NCBI GenBank assembly: GCA_002507545.1
Contig: DAVR01000042.1
Location: 1 to 48,381 of the forward strand
DNA from: Archaeoglobus sp. UBA230
GTDB lineage: Archaea > Halobacteriota > Archaeoglobi > Archaeoglobales > Archaeoglobaceae
DNA: 48,381 nt
Direction of reading: 5' to 3'
In this document: piece after piece, positions 10,973-15,630 of the stretch
Layout: the number at the start of each line of letters is the position of its first letter
Position numbering within the stretch: the first letter of the stretch is position 1
Program-made: the position numbers and the translations under genes
The notes under the pieces: model-generated
Seen by the model: only the letters and a program-made list of their open reading frames with translations
Told to the model about the DNA's origin: nothing
The model's database searches: none

Positions 10973-11065
10973 CTTCTATCACCAATTTTAACTACAATTA
11001 ATCACCATATTTAAATTTAACTTAGAGAGCTGTAGGATGGTGACAAACCATCTCCGTTCTCAGGA

Positions 11066-11076
11066 CAAAGTTTAAA
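11066..11076 (+). promoter_or_regulatory. tRNA-Asn promoter
   Basis: AGTTTAAATTC is an archaeal TATA box centred about 31 bases before the first base of tRNA-Asn, so transcription would start a few bases upstream of the mature 5' end. Confidence 0.6.
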
Positions 11077-11101
11077 TTCATTGTGGCAAAGAAGCTGATG
11101 A

Positions 11102-11174
11102 GCCGCCGTAGCTTAGCTGGTAGAGCGTCCGGCTGTTAACCGGACGGTCGCAGGTTCGAATCCTGCCGGCGGCG
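11102..11174 (+). tRNA. tRNA-Asn(GTT)
   Basis: A 73-nt cloverleaf without intron. The acceptor is GCCGCCG with CGGCGGC and the discriminator is G. The anticodon loop TGTTAAC carries anticodon GTT at 11135-11137. The T-arm is GCAGGTTCGAATCCTGC. No CCA is encoded. T-runs at 11187-11190 and 11197-11201 can end the transcript. Confidence 0.97.
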
Positions 11175-11263
11175 CTTCGTCGCCGCTTTTAAAGCATTTT
11201 TGAGTTCGTTTACTTTAACACCCCCCTAACTTTGTAACTGAGCTGTCCTGTTCTACAACAAAA

Positions 11264-11273
11264 TTTTTAAATA
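11264..11273 (+). promoter_or_regulatory. Promoter of the aromatic amino acid operon leader
   Basis: TTTTTAAATA, preceded by CAACAAAA, is a good archaeal TATA box. Its centre (about 11269) lies 26 bases before the ATG of the Phe-rich leader peptide. The transcript should therefore start at or next to that ATG, well upstream of the first enzyme gene at 11438. Confidence 0.65.
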
Positions 11274-11294
11274 CTGCATGGCAAACAACAGGCA

Positions 11295-11366
11295 ATGGGT
11301 CTAACGCCAAGACTCGAAAACACCTTTGGATTTTTCTTCGGTTTTAGATATAGCTTTAGCTTTTAA
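11295..11366 (+). CDS. Putative Phe/Tyr-rich leader peptide of the aromatic operon
   Basis: A 23-codon ORF from ATG 11295 to TAA 11364-11366. Phe occupies positions 11, 13, 14, 15, 17, 21 and 23 and Tyr position 19, so 8 of the last 13 residues are Phe or Tyr. These are two of the end products of the operon that follows. The TATA box 26 bases upstream makes the message leaderless or nearly so. The stop codon overlaps a near-perfect SD site (AAAGGAGGTGA, 11366-11376). By analogy with bacterial pheA/pheST leaders, a ribosome stalling at Phe codons could change the folding of the downstream leader. This control is an inference. The composition could be chance, but the position, length and promoter all fit. 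Confidence 0.55.
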   Translation: MGLTPRLENTFGFFFGFRYSFSF

Positions 11367-11437
11367 AAGGAGGTGAACTGCATTGGTTTCGGGTGTTTGT
11401 ATATGTCTATGGTCTAAAAATATAAGAGGTGTTTTAT
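11366..11437 (+). promoter_or_regulatory. Aromatic operon leader with SD sites and long-range pairing
   Basis: This is the untranslated or lightly translated part of the leader. It holds SD1 AAAGGAGGTGA (11366-11376), complementary to the 16S 3' end, and SD2 GAGGTG (11426-11431), which serves the ADH synthase ATG at 11438. Two nested helices can form. Bases 11317-11327 pair with 11425-11435 (11 bp, one G-U), which hides SD2. Bases 11342-11348 plus 11350-11353 pair with 11413-11419 plus 11407-11410. The 5' strands of both helices lie inside the Phe-rich peptide gene. Confidence 0.5.
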
Positions 11438-11448
11438 ATGATAGGTAA
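11383..11448 (+). CDS. Possible second small leader ORF (TTG start) coupled to ADH synthase
   Basis: A TTG at 11383 lies 9 bases after the GGAGG core of SD1. It opens a 21-codon frame ending at TAA 11446-11448, which overlaps the first codons of the ADH synthase gene (ATG 11438) by 11 bases. The predicted peptide has Cys at 6 and 8 and Trp at 10 and resembles no known family. Its likely role, if translated, is coupling: ribosomes loading at the strong SD1 would end on top of the next start. The alternative is that SD1 serves no ORF and acts only as an RNA-pairing or ribosome-standby site. Confidence 0.3.
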   Translation: MVSGVCICLWSKNIRGVLYDR

Positions 11449-12211
11449 AAGAAGAAGGATGCAAAGAATACTTAAGAATGGAAGGTCAGTGATACTTCCA
11501 ATGGATCACGGAATCACTCAGCCAGAGAAAGGGATTGAAAAAGTTGACAGAGTCGTCGAAGTAGTACAGGAATATGTGGATGCCATAATTGTACATAAGG
11601 GAGTTGCGAAGAGGTCAGAGGTTATTGCAGAGATGGATGCAGGACTGATTATACATCTGAGCGGTTCTACGATGTGGGCTGAAGACCCGAATGACAAGAG
11701 ACTGGTGACAACCGTGGAGAAGGCAATCTCTCTGGGAGCGGATGGTGTAAGCATGCATGTAAATATCGGGAGCAAAACTGAAGCCGATCAAATCGAGAAA
11801 CTTGGTTACGTATCCGAGGTATGCGACTGGTATAGCATTCCGCTGCTTGCGATGATGTATCCGAGAGGGGATATTGAAGTCAACACTGAAACTGTAAAAC
11901 ATGCGGCAAGAATTGGCTATGAACTGGGAGCAGACATAATCAAGGTTCCTTACACCCTCAAGTTCGAGAAAGTGACAGCAATTTGTGATTTGCCTGTTGT
12001 CATAGCCGGAGGAAGTAAAGGGAGCGAATATGAACTTTACAAAAAAGTGGAAGATGCCATGAGCAGGGGTGCTGCTGGAGTCGCTGTTGGGAGAAATATA
12101 TTTAACAGTAGCCATCCAGCTAAGGTTGCCAAAGCACTGCACATGATAGTCCATAACAACCTGAGTGCAGAGGATGTGATAGAATATGAAGGAAATATGG
12201 TTGTTGGCTGA
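11438..12211 (+). CDS. aroA': 2-Amino-3,7-dideoxy-D-threo-hept-6-ulosonate (ADH) synthase, aldolase-like
   Basis: A 257-residue class I aldolase-fold enzyme. It starts the archaeal route to 3-dehydroquinate by joining 6-deoxy-5-ketofructose 1-phosphate with L-aspartate semialdehyde. It replaces DAHP synthase. The barrel motif PMDHGI is at residues 21-26 (Asp23 and His24 in the active site). The catalytic Tyr lies in MMYPRG (Tyr141) and the Schiff-base Lys is Lys169 in IIKVPYT. The C-terminal phosphate loops AGGSKGS and GRNIFNS are also visible. The start is ATG 11438, with SD GAGGTG at 11426-11431; a GTG at 11429 is in frame but would place the SD inside the gene. The 3' end overlaps the DHQ synthase II gene by 26 bases. 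It is the first enzyme gene of the aromatic operon, preceded by a peptide-coding leader. Confidence 0.95.
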   Translation: MIGKRRRMQRILKNGRSVILPMDHGITQPEKGIEKVDRVVEVVQEYVDAIIVHKGVAKRSEVIAEMDAGLIIHLSGSTMWAEDPNDKRLVTTVEKAISLGADGVSMHVNIGSKTEADQIEKLGYVSEVCDWYSIPLLAMMYPRGDIEVNTETVKHAARIGYELGADIIKVPYTLKFEKVTAICDLPVVIAGGSKGSEYELYKKVEDAMSRGAAGVAVGRNIFNSSHPAKVAKALHMIVHNNLSAEDVIEYEGNMVVG

Positions 12212-13160
12212 AACTGAAAGTTGGGAAGTTGCCAAGGAGATGCTGAAAGACGCGATCGAAATTGGATTCGACGGTGCTGTTGTAAGTGAGAAGTTTCTGG
12301 ACAAAGCGAAGAAGCTCGGCAGGATAAAACTCCTGCCCCTTGAGAAGGCTTTGATGAAAATAAGCTCAGCAGATGACCAGCTTAAGGCTGTTGAAAGTGG
12401 TGACGTCGTCATTTTGAAGTTTGAAGACTGGAAGGTTATTCCGCTTGAGAACATCGTAGCAATGAAAAAGGGTGGGAAGGTAATTGCTGCAGTTGATAAT
12501 ACCGACGATGCAAAGCTGGCTCTGACAACACTGGAAAAAGGAGCTGACGGCATAGCGGTCAGGGGCGATAGAGAAGAGCTGATGAGCTACTACAGATTAG
12601 TTAAAGAGCAGAAAGAGAGCATTGAACTTCTGAGAGGTAAAATTGTAGAAATAAAGCCTCTTGGAGTTGGTGAGAGAGTCTGCATTGATACCGTAACACT
12701 GATGACTCCCGGAGAGGGGATGCTTGTTGGCAACAGGTCTGCTTTCATGTTTCTTGTGGCAAGTGAGAGTGAAGAAAGTGAGTATGTCGCTTCAAGACCT
12801 TTCAGAGTAAACGCCGGAAGTGTCAACGCTTATCTGAAGGTGGGAAACAAGACGAAGTATCTTGCAGAGCTTAAGGCTGGGGATGGAGTTGAGATTGTGA
12901 GGTATGACGGAAAAGTGAGAGAGAGCTACGTGGGTAGAGTTAAGATTGAGAGGAGACCGCTTATCCTTGTCAAGGCTTCTGTGAATGGAGAAGTAGGTAG
13001 CATCATACTCCAGAACGCTGAAACGATAAAGCTTATCGCTCCAGATGGAAAGCACATTTCGGTTTCTGAACTGAAGGAAGGTGATGAAGTGCTTATCTGG
13101 ATTGGTGAAAAGGCGAGACATTTTGGTGTTGAAGTTGATGAATTTATTGTGGAGAGATGA
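12186..13160 (+). CDS. aroB': 3-Dehydroquinate synthase II
   Basis: A 324-residue archaeal DHQ synthase II. It oxidatively deaminates and cyclises the ADH synthase product to 3-dehydroquinate with NAD, and is unrelated to bacterial AroB. The family is recognisable from the N-terminal MKEIWLLAE, the central block GVGERVCIDTVTLMTPGEGMLVG (near 177-199) and the following FLVASESEESEYVASRPFRVNAG run. Length is normal for the family. The start at ATG 12186 lies inside the end of the ADH synthase gene, and the stop forms an ATGA overlap with aroD, so translation of the three genes is probably coupled. Confidence 0.96.
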   Translation: MKEIWLLAETESWEVAKEMLKDAIEIGFDGAVVSEKFLDKAKKLGRIKLLPLEKALMKISSADDQLKAVESGDVVILKFEDWKVIPLENIVAMKKGGKVIAAVDNTDDAKLALTTLEKGADGIAVRGDREELMSYYRLVKEQKESIELLRGKIVEIKPLGVGERVCIDTVTLMTPGEGMLVGNRSAFMFLVASESEESEYVASRPFRVNAGSVNAYLKVGNKTKYLAELKAGDGVEIVRYDGKVRESYVGRVKIERRPLILVKASVNGEVGSIILQNAETIKLIAPDGKHISVSELKEGDEVLIWIGEKARHFGVEVDEFIVER

Positions 13161-13765
13161 AGCTCGTTGCCACAGTTTCAAGCCTTAAAGAGGTAAAGCT
13201 GGCAGAGAAGGCCGATTTAATCGAAATCAGGCTTGATCTGTTCAATAGAGTTTGGGAAGCCATTGACGAGATAAGAGGGATTGAAAAGGAGATAATTGCA
13301 ACCTGCAGAAGAGAGAGAGATGGTGGGAAGTTCACAGGAAGAGAGGAGGAAAGAATCGAGGCTTTGAGAAAGTTCGCTGAGGAGACCAATGTGGCCTATG
13401 TAGATGTTGAGTGTGACATGCCAGATTCCGCCTTCAATTTTGATTGTGAAATAATCGAATCATACCATAACTTTAAGGAGACGCCTGACTATTCAGAACT
13501 CAGGAGTATTGTTGAGGGCAAACGGGGAGACCTTGTTAAGGTCGTGACGATGGGGAGGAGCAAAAAAGATGTTGGAAAGATTGTCAAACTCCTTCTGGAA
13601 TTTGAGGGTGTGATTGCTTTTCTTATGGGCAAAGAGTTTTCCTTCACCCGCATAATGGCTGCCTACTTGGGGTCACCCTTCATTTACTGCCATGTTGGCG
13701 AATCCAAAGCTCCGGGACAGATTCATCTTAATGACGCCTACAAGATACTGAAAACTCTGGGGTGA
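13157..13765 (+). CDS. aroD: Type I 3-dehydroquinate dehydratase
   Basis: A 202-residue class I dehydroquinase that turns 3-dehydroquinate into 3-dehydroshikimate through a Schiff base. The entry strand IEIRLDLF (22-29), the general-base His104 in ESYHNFKETP, and the Schiff-base Lys128 in LVKVVTMGRS are all present. The C-terminal lid FIYCHVGESKAPGQI contains the usual substrate-contact Ser and Gln. It is shorter than bacterial AroD (about 250), as archaeal forms tend to be. Its ATG overlaps the stop of the DHQ synthase II gene (ATGA). Confidence 0.96.
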   Translation: MKLVATVSSLKEVKLAEKADLIEIRLDLFNRVWEAIDEIRGIEKEIIATCRRERDGGKFTGREEERIEALRKFAEETNVAYVDVECDMPDSAFNFDCEIIESYHNFKETPDYSELRSIVEGKRGDLVKVVTMGRSKKDVGKIVKLLLEFEGVIAFLMGKEFSFTRIMAAYLGSPFIYCHVGESKAPGQIHLNDAYKILKTLG

Positions 13766-13770
13766 TATGT

Positions 13771-15630
13771 TTGAAAATTCTGATTTATGGCGTTGGGAAC
13801 ATGGGGGAGCTTTTCAGAGACCTGTTCTACAGTAGAGGTTACTATGTAAAGGGATACGATATTGACGAGATGAAAAGAGATACAAACACCGTTTCAGGCT
13901 TTGATGTGATTTTTGTTTGCACACCCATGTATGCGCTTGAAGAATCTATCAAACATCTGATGAGGGAGGCTGACCCAACATCCCTCCTCGTTGACATTTC
14001 CTCAGTAAAGAAGGATTCAATTCCAATCTTTGAGAAATCTGGTTTTGACTTTCTCAGCATTCACCCTATGTTTGGGGGTGACAGTGAGATTGCACTTTCG
14101 AATATTATCGTAGTTCACGAGTCGGGAAGAGAAGAGGAGAGAGCGATCCTTAATGAGTTCATAAAGAGCGGAGCGGTGATAAGCAAGCTGGATGTTGAGG
14201 AGCACGACAGGAAGATGGCAGAGATTCAGGGTGTGGCTCATTTTCTGCTTGTCTCGATGGCCGATTTTCTGAGATACAAGAAAGATGAACTAAGATACGC
14301 CTCTCCGATTTTTACAGTTCTTTACAAACTTGCAAGCAGGATAATCAACCAGAACTGGGAAATGTATTACAGGATTCAGAAAAACGCTGAAGATGTGAGG
14401 CAGCAATTTTTAGAAAGAGCTTTGAAGCTCCACGAAAATTTAAAGAACTATGATAAGTTTAGAGAAACTTTTGAGGATTTGAGGAAGATTTACACTGATT
14501 ACGAATCGAGCACGATAATCTTGGAGGCTTACAAAGCGACGAAGAGAGTCGAGAACCTTGATGAACTCAGGGGACTCATAAGGTCTATTGACTCCCTCCT
14601 ACTCAGGTTGATAGAGAGGAGGGTAGAGGCTGCAAGAGAAATAGCGAGAATAAAGGCTGAGAGGGGTGAACCTATAGAGATCAAAGATGTGGAAGAAGAG
14701 AAGATAAGGGATGTGATTTCAAAAACCGGACTTAACCCCATTAGGGTGAAGGATATCTTTGAAAGCATAATGGCACTTACAAAGGAGGAGGAATACAGAG
14801 TTACTGGGATACAAAGAACCGTTGCCGTTCTCGGTCCTCAAGGTAGCTTTAGCGATGAAATGGCACTAAAGCTTGTCGGTTCGAGAGTGCCATTGAGATA
14901 CTGCGCCACAACAGATGAGATTATAAAGCTGGTTGAAAGGGGTGAAGTTGATTTTGGTATTGTTCCCATTGAGAACTCGGTTAACGGAACAGTTCTACCA
15001 GTCCTTGACGCTTTAATGAGCCACGATGTTGAGGTTTTTGGCGAGGCAAGGCTTGAAGTTAATCATTGCCTCGTCGCGAAACGTAAGATTGAGCTGAAGG
15101 ATATCAAGACCATCTACTCTCATCCTCAGGCAGTTGCACAGTGCATGGGATTCATAAACAACTATCTGCCAAATGCAAGCATTCGTTACACGTCTTCGAC
15201 AAGCGATGCTGCAAAAATGCTCGATGATTATTCTGCAGCGATAATGTCAGAAAATGCCGCAAGGTTCTACAGGCTGCATGTGCTGAGGAAGGGAATTCAG
15301 GATTTGAAGGGACGAAACATAACGAGGTTTTACCTGATAAGGCGTAAAACTGGTAGGAGAGAAGGGAAGATTACCTCTCTTTTCTTTGGAGTTGAAGATA
15401 GACCGGGAGCGCTGAAGGATGTTTTAGAGGTGTTTTACAGGAAAGGATTCAACCTGAGAAAGCTTGAATCAAGACCCGCAGGGACGGGATTGGGAGACTA
15501 CGTCTTCTTCGTTGAAGTGGAAGCGTCACTCAGTGAGGATGATCTAAAAGACCTTAAGAACGTTACAGCATTCTACAAGGTGGTAGGGGTATTTGATGAG
15601 ATCGAAACCCTGGACGTGTATAATTTCTGA
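13771..15630 (+). CDS. pheA: TyrA-AroQ-PheA-ACT fusion: prephenate dehydrogenase / chorismate mutase / prephenate dehydratase
   Basis: A 619-residue multifunctional enzyme that takes chorismate towards both Phe and Tyr. Residues 1-240 are a prephenate dehydrogenase with NAD-binding IYGVGNMGE (4-12) and HPMFGG near 93-98. Residues about 265-345 are an AroQ chorismate mutase helix bundle (IDSLLLRLIERRVEAAREIARIK pattern). Residues about 348-525 are prephenate dehydratase (VAVLGPQGSFS, VPIENSVNG, and the catalytic TRF near 517). Residues about 535-615 are an ACT domain with the Phe-binding ESRP motif near 565. The ACT domain points to feedback by phenylalanine. I prefer TTG 13771, 5 bases after the aroD stop and after SD GGGTGA. 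A GTG at 13762 in the same frame adds three residues. Similar fusions are known in Archaeoglobus. Confidence 0.95.
   Translation: MKILIYGVGNMGELFRDLFYSRGYYVKGYDIDEMKRDTNTVSGFDVIFVCTPMYALEESIKHLMREADPTSLLVDISSVKKDSIPIFEKSGFDFLSIHPMFGGDSEIALSNIIVVHESGREEERAILNEFIKSGAVISKLDVEEHDRKMAEIQGVAHFLLVSMADFLRYKKDELRYASPIFTVLYKLASRIINQNWEMYYRIQKNAEDVRQQFLERALKLHENLKNYDKFRETFEDLRKIYTDYESSTIILEAYKATKRVENLDELRGLIRSIDSLLLRLIERRVEAAREIARIKAERGEPIEIKDVEEEKIRDVISKTGLNPIRVKDIFESIMALTKEEEYRVTGIQRTVAVLGPQGSFSDEMALKLVGSRVPLRYCATTDEIIKLVERGEVDFGIVPIENSVNGTVLPVLDALMSHDVEVFGEARLEVNHCLVAKRKIELKDIKTIYSHPQAVAQCMGFINNYLPNASIRYTSSTSDAAKMLDDYSAAIMSENAARFYRLHVLRKGIQDLKGRNITRFYLIRRKTGRREGKITSLFFGVEDRPGALKDVLEVFYRKGFNLRKLESRPAGTGLGDYVFFVEVEASLSEDDLKDLKNVTAFYKVVGVFDEIETLDVYNF

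Follow-up and report, generated by a model that had tools for sequence, protein, structure and literature searches.

Ribosome stalling within a leader ORF that controls an amino acid operon is a textbook bacterial mechanism, and the leader-peptide attenuators of Escherichia coli pheA (pheL) and pheST (pheM) each contain a short Phe-rich ORF. No archaeal leader-peptide attenuator was found in the open-access full-text literature among the matches listed, a scope that leaves subscription journals mostly outside. The words 'attenuation' and 'leader peptide' are absent from the main text of PMC8116511, and the part of a Methanosarcina mazei Ribo-seq study that deals with uORFs names none of them as an amino acid attenuator (PMC11456600). 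Some archaeal mRNAs are described as having no 5′ UTR (PMC8116511), and for most archaeal terminators a hairpin is not strictly needed (PMC8716108). Because terminators are mostly hairpin-independent and some mRNAs lack a 5′ UTR, an archaeal version of leader-peptide control should work differently from the bacterial one. Translational coupling of neighbouring ORFs at short spacings is reported for Haloferax volcanii (PMC12548453).

A Phe/Tyr-rich ORF ahead of the ADH synthase operon

The window analysed here is a stretch of 48,381 nt from Archaeoglobus sp. UBA230 (contig DAVR01000042.1). A short ORF (ORF1) lies on its forward strand behind a TATA box:

11266..11273, + strand: TATA box TTTAAATA, centre 25 nt 5′ of the ORF1 start codon
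11295..11366, + strand: ORF1, candidate aromatic leader peptide MGLTPRLENTFGFFFGFRYSFSF, probably leaderless, 23 codons from the ATG at 11295 to the TAA at 11366

Phe occupies positions 11, 13, 14, 15, 17, 21 and 23 of ORF1 and Tyr occupies position 19, and a gap of 71 nt separates the ORF1 stop from the ATG (11438) of the ADH synthase (ADHS) gene. The TATA box, the 23-codon ORF, the Phe/Tyr positions and the 71-base gap had all been named in the original prediction, and each was found again when the window sequence was re-read; the presence of a Phe/Tyr-rich ORF before the ADHS gene is confirmed as an observation. A second ATG, at 11278, is in a frame different from that of ORF1 and lies 5′ of the expected transcription start. 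A tRNA-Asn (GTT) gene (11102-11175) is located on the same strand, directly upstream of the ORF1 promoter.

The genes downstream, assigned with Pfam and NCBIfam, follow the order ADHS-DHQS-aroD-tyrA/CM/pheA:

11438..12211, + strand: ADH synthase (2-amino-3,7-dideoxy-D-threo-hept-6-ulosonate synthase); TIGR01949, 353 bits, cut-off 299
12186..13160, + strand: 3-dehydroquinate synthase II; PF01959, 391 bits, and NF002627 above cut-off
13157..13765, + strand: type I 3-dehydroquinate dehydratase; PF01487, and TIGR01093 above cut-off
13762..15630, + strand: prephenate dehydrogenase/chorismate mutase/prephenate dehydratase/ACT fusion; PF02153, PF20463, PF01817, PF00800 and PF01842, all above cut-off

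The earlier reading of the last gene as a TyrA-AroQ-PheA fusion was borne out by its PDH_N/PDH_C, chorismate mutase, PDT and ACT domains. Since the operon encodes this TyrA/chorismate mutase/PheA/ACT fusion, Phe and Tyr are its products; Trp derives from the same chorismate.

ORF1 resembles pheL and pheM in being a small, Phe-rich reading frame that heads its operon, which in those cases makes Phe or PheRS, and it presents one feature of amino acid leader-peptide attenuators, a product-codon-rich ORF directly 5′ of the operon. Unlike them, the archaeal ORF probably lacks a 5′ UTR, is geared to Phe, Tyr and Trp together, and has aromatic codons that run to the stop, and neither alternative hairpins nor a hairpin terminator were detected at the archaeal leader. 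We consider it likely that ORF1 is a leader peptide at the very 5′ end of the mRNA, on which the ribosome senses charged tRNA-Phe, tRNA-Tyr and tRNA-Trp and controls entry into the operon; this reading of the sequence is supported by the comparison over 46 genomes and by the analogous case in methanogens, both described below.

Conservation and probable leaderless geometry in Archaeoglobales

An aromatic-rich ORF lies just 5′ of an aro-type ADHS gene in 46/46 Archaeoglobales genomes in which such a gene was examinable, out of 57 genomes searched (the 46 comprise the 44 tabulated loci plus G034 and G039). The original prediction depended on such an ORF being conserved in relatives, and this is what was found. 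Among the remaining 11 genomes, four had no ADHS match, one had a fragment and six had only a paralogous ADHS, as judged by similarity. The four genomes without any ADHS match are G009, G021, G023 and G051; entry into aromatic synthesis may differ in them, or these drafts may be incomplete. In G034, the best-matching ADHS copy (L026, on G034:C186) has no leader and another aro-type copy has one; L026 was excluded from the 44-locus table, and taking only the best-matching copy per genome would give a count of 45/46. L026 is an extra ADHS copy that is overlapped by an upstream ORF.

Leader peptides from distant genera include MPAHTSRYGYFGFFWFNFSFGFSF, MLARSDGNLAFRHFFWFTFSFSYRYSF and MTMIYDNNVMEVNIPDFWFSFRYFYYRFSY. 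An alignment of 35 leader peptides has zero invariant columns; what is kept is composition and position, with F, Y and W occupying equivalent places in different genera. ORF1 is 20-34 codons long in the 44 loci, and its N-terminal half is variable. The predicted richness in Phe and Tyr held, with the amendment that the peptide reads Trp too rather than Phe alone.

In 44/44 loci, 24-28 nt separate the ORF1 start codon (43 ATG, one GTG) from the midpoint of a TATA-like box, and elsewhere within 60 nt an ATG occurs at 1.4% of positions; as the start codon was picked among alternatives to suit the TATA distance in several loci, this agreement is a fit and not a blind test. Archaeal transcription starts at about this distance from the TATA centre. 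An SD-like (Shine-Dalgarno) 5-mer precedes ORF1 in 2/44 loci versus 43/44 for ADHS. Given the constant TATA spacing and the rarity of an SD before it, ORF1 is very probably leaderless, and the leaderless geometry first proposed for the window alone proves to be conserved across the set.

A profile search of the 57 genomes with the leader gave 34 matches, 29 at leaders and five elsewhere, and missed 17 of the 46 leaders. The off-leader matches consist of one in G021 antisense to a lysine-rich ORF, three in frames of ~300 codons (G021, G023 and G024) and one on G003:C11 (L124). At paralogous ADHS genes, an aromatic leader within 220 nt was found in 0/18 loci, and in 0/5 further paralogue loci; frames with 6-7 aromatic codons in the paralogue loci L233, L235 and L238 lie farther upstream than 220 nt. 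These results bear on the idea that the ORF1 product is itself a functional micro-protein, for example a membrane-bound one, which is merely co-transcribed with the operon. The aromatic, hydrophobic C-terminal half would be compatible with membrane contact, but the idea is very improbable in view of the short length, the variable N-terminal halves, the lack of any invariant residue, the tie to aro-type ADHS with absence at the paralogue, and profile matches that fall mostly at leaders.

Frame specificity and codon choice

The 44 ORFs were picked for their aromatic richness, and controls were therefore needed; the absence of Leu codons was no selection criterion. The last 14 codons contain on average 8.23 Phe/Tyr/Trp codons in frame, whereas the two alternative frames average 1.09 and 1.95 and shuffles 2.97; taken singly, 43/44 leaders have p<0.01. 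At least seven aromatic codons in the last 14 are present in 42/44 leaders, compared with 8/5010 other stops preceded by 14 open codons in the same loci. The aromatic share amounts to 59% of the last 14 codons versus 9% of the rest of ORF1, the final sense codon is aromatic in 37/44 loci, and an aromatic codon is found among the last two in 43/44. Gaps inside ORF1 are multiples of 3 and those past its stop are not, as seen in an alignment of 11 loci (4/8 of genus g1 and 7/8 of genus g20). Among 84 codon columns from six genus groups, 52 are identical, 12 have synonymous changes only, one has an aromatic swap and 19 have other residue changes. Of the two signs of selection on the peptide that had been proposed as a check by alignment, retained aromatic richness is evident, and synonymous drift is visible but modest (12/84 columns).

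Of the 377 T-starting codons in the 44 leaders, 362 are aromatic, and TTA and TTG never occur, so that U-richness alone cannot explain them. Runs of U4 or more inside the aromatic codons are not enriched either (70 observed, 64 expected, p 0.18), and U-rich DNA was rejected as the source of the Phe codons.

Codon choice within ORF1 is itself unusual. Before the base A, Phe is encoded by TTT 92 times and by TTC once, compared with 126 to 225 in background genes; where F-S is written with AGC, it is TTT AGC in 71/71 cases, versus 13 TTT to 21 TTC before AGC in the background. The resulting hexamer TTTAGC (UUUAGC in the RNA) occurs in 43/44 leaders and is out of frame within ORF1 only once (L039). 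AGC, TTT and TAT are all over-used in ORF1, in a count for which several start codons were later revised. The TTT-before-A and TTTAGC contexts may sensitise waiting ribosomes, or something else may read the RNA as well, and the near-fixed UUUAGC hints at a nucleotide-level role outside the leader-peptide model. Another possibility is that coding is incidental and that a protein binds UUUAGC repeats here, in the DNA or in the RNA. We regard this as highly unlikely, however constant the TTT AGC writing and the TTT preference before A may be: the in-frame placement of the hexamer and the exclusion of TTA and TTG speak against it, and a binding site would have no use for the exchange of F, Y and W, the TGG codons or the start-codon spacing.

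The region between ORF1 and the ADHS gene

Three further elements lie between the ORF1 stop and the beginning of the ADHS gene in the window:

11367..11376, + strand: SD1, strong Shine-Dalgarno sequence AAGGAGGTGA directly after the ORF1 stop
11383..11448, + strand: ORF2, short second ORF that begins with TTG (LVSGVCICLWSKNIRGVLYDR) and overlaps the beginning of the ADHS gene
11426..11431, + strand: SD2, Shine-Dalgarno sequence GAGGTG of the ADHS gene

SD1 is found 0-10 nt past the ORF1 stop in 8/8 g1 loci and 8/8 g20 loci, and the SD2 region AAAATATAAGAGGTGTTTTATATG is identical in all eight g1 loci. In the eight genera with ORF2, a strong SD follows the ORF1 stop at a distance of at most 17 nt in 27/28 loci. 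A generous scan, applied in the same way to both sets of genera, identified a candidate ORF2 ending between −6 and +25 nt of the ADHS start in 25/28 loci of these eight genera versus 1/16 loci of the six others. ORF2 is thus missing in six genera, and it ends elsewhere in 3/28 loci of the eight that have it. Its start varies among ATG, GTG and TTG, indels in it do not come in multiples of 3, and neither its sequence nor its frame is stable; judging from this pattern, the ORF2 sequence seems unimportant.

This arrangement resembles the coupling of neighbouring ORFs in H. volcanii in that the end of ORF2 meets or overlaps the start of ADHS; it differs from it in that an aromatic sensor ORF precedes ORF2 and in that ORF2 is no pathway gene. 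For the window, we tentatively suggest, at somewhat less than even confidence, that a ribosome waiting on ORF1 covers SD1, halts the ORF2 traffic and so frees the ADHS SD. It is just as conceivable that ORF2 delivers ribosomes to ADHS by coupling; the sign of control would then be reversed, and wrong for an operon of biosynthesis.

The proximity of a strong SD to the ORF1 stop, together with the aromatic final sense codon in most loci, would also suit a nascent-peptide sensor of the TnaC type, in which the finished peptide arrests the ribosome at the stop when free Phe/Tyr is high, blocks the next SD and represses the operon, a sign that fits feedback repression. Arrest peptides usually retain specific residues, but the leaders conserve composition alone, with no invariant column among the 35 aligned sequences and with F, Y and W interchanging between genera, so that such a sensor is improbable.

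The main rival to control at the level of translation comes from the loci without ORF2. Runs of T5-T8 between ORF1 and ADHS occur in 8/16 of them, compared with 2/28 loci of the ORF2 genera (Fisher p 0.002, with loci that are not independent). The U-tracts in or after ORF1 could be terminators of the aCPSF1/FttA type, shielded by a stalled ribosome, and the leader would act on transcription. aCPSF1 binds U4 tracts, and a hairpin is mostly not strictly required (PMC8716108); some genera have U5-U8 runs after ORF1 and before ADHS that are like the U-tracts of this termination. The U4 runs within ORF1 are not enriched, a U5 run is lacking in half of the loci that have no ORF2, and the use of the mechanism here is hypothetical. 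We consider this termination variant rather unlikely.

RNA structure

The bacterial comparison had suggested a terminator/antiterminator fold, which was looked for and did not materialise: no terminator-like hairpin was detected in window positions 11200-11500, and mutually exclusive antiterminator and intrinsic terminator hairpins of the trp/phe type were not found in Archaeoglobales. A joint fold of 11 g1 and g20 sequences provided no conserved RNA structure (RNAalifold −3.4 kcal/mol, one covarying pair only). The region after ORF1 has a mean z of −0.39 over the 44 loci, with four below −2.5 (G049, G052, G036 and G058). A possible hairpin drawn by eye between the ORF1 start and the aromatic codons in g1 and g20 is near-invariant in g20, hence uninformative there; in g1, visual inspection shows a single compensatory change (G004/G005), and the joint fold lacks this hairpin. 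Among the Rfam 15 covariance models, including T-box and riboswitch models, only that of the upstream tRNA reaches its gathering score in window positions 11000-12300.

Modelling at 65 °C of the 44 loci, in which the frame of L033 was off and several start codons were later revised, gave an ADHS SD accessibility of 0.54 in the free RNA versus 0.54-0.56 with a modelled ribosome at three positions. With accessibility flat, a switch that exposes the ADHS SD is unsupported in Archaeoglobales. The accessibility of SD1 rose from 0.46 to 0.60-0.68 with the modelled ribosome, which is largely an artefact of scoring the covered SD1 as unpaired. As Archaeoglobales include hyperthermophiles, a device that relies on where the ribosome stands, and not on weak hairpins, is plausible.

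Analogous ORFs in methanogens

An analogous aromatic ORF was present in 12/12 genomes examined from five families of the same phylum (f6, f13, f23, f24 and f25). Methyl-coenzyme M reductase is encoded in 11 of these 12 leader-bearing genomes and was not found in the draft G088, so the twelve are taken to be methanogens; we infer that they belong to Methanomicrobiales. Their leader precedes the first of two tandem ADHS genes, and the one operon that was read has the order ADHS, ADHS, DHQS, tyrA, pheA, aroA. The open frame spans 48-68 codons when counting begins at the base that follows a conserved ATG; its start codon is provisional, and its last 14 codons contain 6-10 aromatic codons versus 0-5 in the other frames. 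The codon preference recurs as well: within the last 14 codons, Phe before A is encoded by TTT 14 times and otherwise once.

The RNA past the leader stop has z from −0.24 to −3.65 (mean −1.3), and the minimum-energy hairpin contains the ADHS SD in 7/12 loci (f6, f23 and f24). This hairpin is like that of the ermC translational attenuator in that it holds the SD of the controlled gene, and in f6 the ADHS SD is released in the model once a ribosome sits on the final codon or the stop. Unlike in ermC, the proposed signal is an uncharged aromatic tRNA and not an antibiotic, no such hairpin is conserved in Archaeoglobales, and the f23 SD stays closed with the modelled ribosome. In the 11 methanogen loci with a recognised SD, modelled ADHS SD accessibility averaged 0.21 in free RNA, 0.39 when a ribosome occupied the final codon and 0.51 when it stood at the stop, a rise due mainly to family f6. 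In the model, opening is clear in f6 (5/5), restricted to the stop position in f24, weak in f13 and absent in f23 and f25. Since opening in this model requires a ribosome on the final codon or the stop, termination by itself could be enough to bring it about.

The leaders (L068, L125, L126 and L129-L137) start with a strongly conserved stretch of ~40 nt that lies ~25-30 nt past a TATA-like box. It could encode a leaderless peptide, for example MRGGCFFAGDRFYLG, in a frame that differs from that of the aromatic ORF, and the stretch could be a peptide, an operator or both. In family f25 (L125 = G137, L129 = G145), long hairpins are found past the leader stop, compared with the short SD hairpins of f6, f23 and f24.

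Searches outside these leaders

No convincing leader was found before ADHS elsewhere in the phylum among 34 loci of 14 families, a scan that lay outside families f10, f15, f16, f20 and f22. A first filter passed 2/34 loci (L076 and L081) yet missed the true f6 leader L068, and the loci were rescanned by the aromatic count in the last 14 codons. The rescan gave 6-7 aromatic codons in four of the 34 (L069, L076, L081 and L097), with L076 and L097 within 150 nt; these four are near chance and probably no true leaders. Among the best 80 named ADHS loci, 77 had enough upstream sequence and seven had at least eight aromatic codons, all of them from Archaeoglobaceae; 5/70 without a true leader have 6-7 aromatic codons (L153, L159, L163, L172 and L217).

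For other amino acids, no consistent Trp-rich ORF was detected in the first 1500 bases of 12 trpE loci, where a few frames with 2-3 Trp were seen, and trpE need not be the first gene of its operon. No consistent His-rich ORF was detected before hisG in 12 loci. A 34-codon frame with six His, ending VLHHYVFHHHHLL, lies ~220 nt before the HisG match in L116 (G014), in this single genome.

Proposed mechanism and implications

In the proposed leader-peptide mechanism, translation of ORF1 would begin at the extreme 5′ end of the transcript, and the ribosome on it would gauge charged tRNA-Phe, tRNA-Tyr and tRNA-Trp. A starved ribosome would wait on hungry aromatic codons, and because these crowd into the final 14 codons and reach the last sense codon or its neighbour, its leading edge would sit on the bases past the stop. 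The element that it meets there may differ by genus: SD1 and ORF2 in the window and seven other genera, an SD-hiding hairpin in some methanogens and U-tracts in some genera. Waiting ribosomes would alter the use of this downstream element, and expression of the ADHS operon would rise when aromatic amino acids are short, a sign expected from bacterial attenuators and from knowledge of the pathway. We infer the translation of ORF1, the stalling on hungry codons, the direction of control and the output in each genus.

In its widest form, which we hold to be about as probable as its opposite, this would mean that archaea have their own ribosome-mediated attenuation, based on a leaderless ORF whose first ribosome loads on a naked 5′ end and senses three aromatic tRNAs. 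It would be kept throughout Archaeoglobales and, with a longer ORF, in five families of methanogens, and its output would have been swapped among U-tract termination, a hairpin that hides the SD, and SD occlusion acting via a relay ORF. The leaders described here provide a compact, conserved and testable case, with a probably leaderless sensor ORF in 46 Archaeoglobales and 12 methanogen genomes. If the mechanism is true, ribosome-dependent control and the coupling of transcription and translation would become measurable at one natural archaeal switch.
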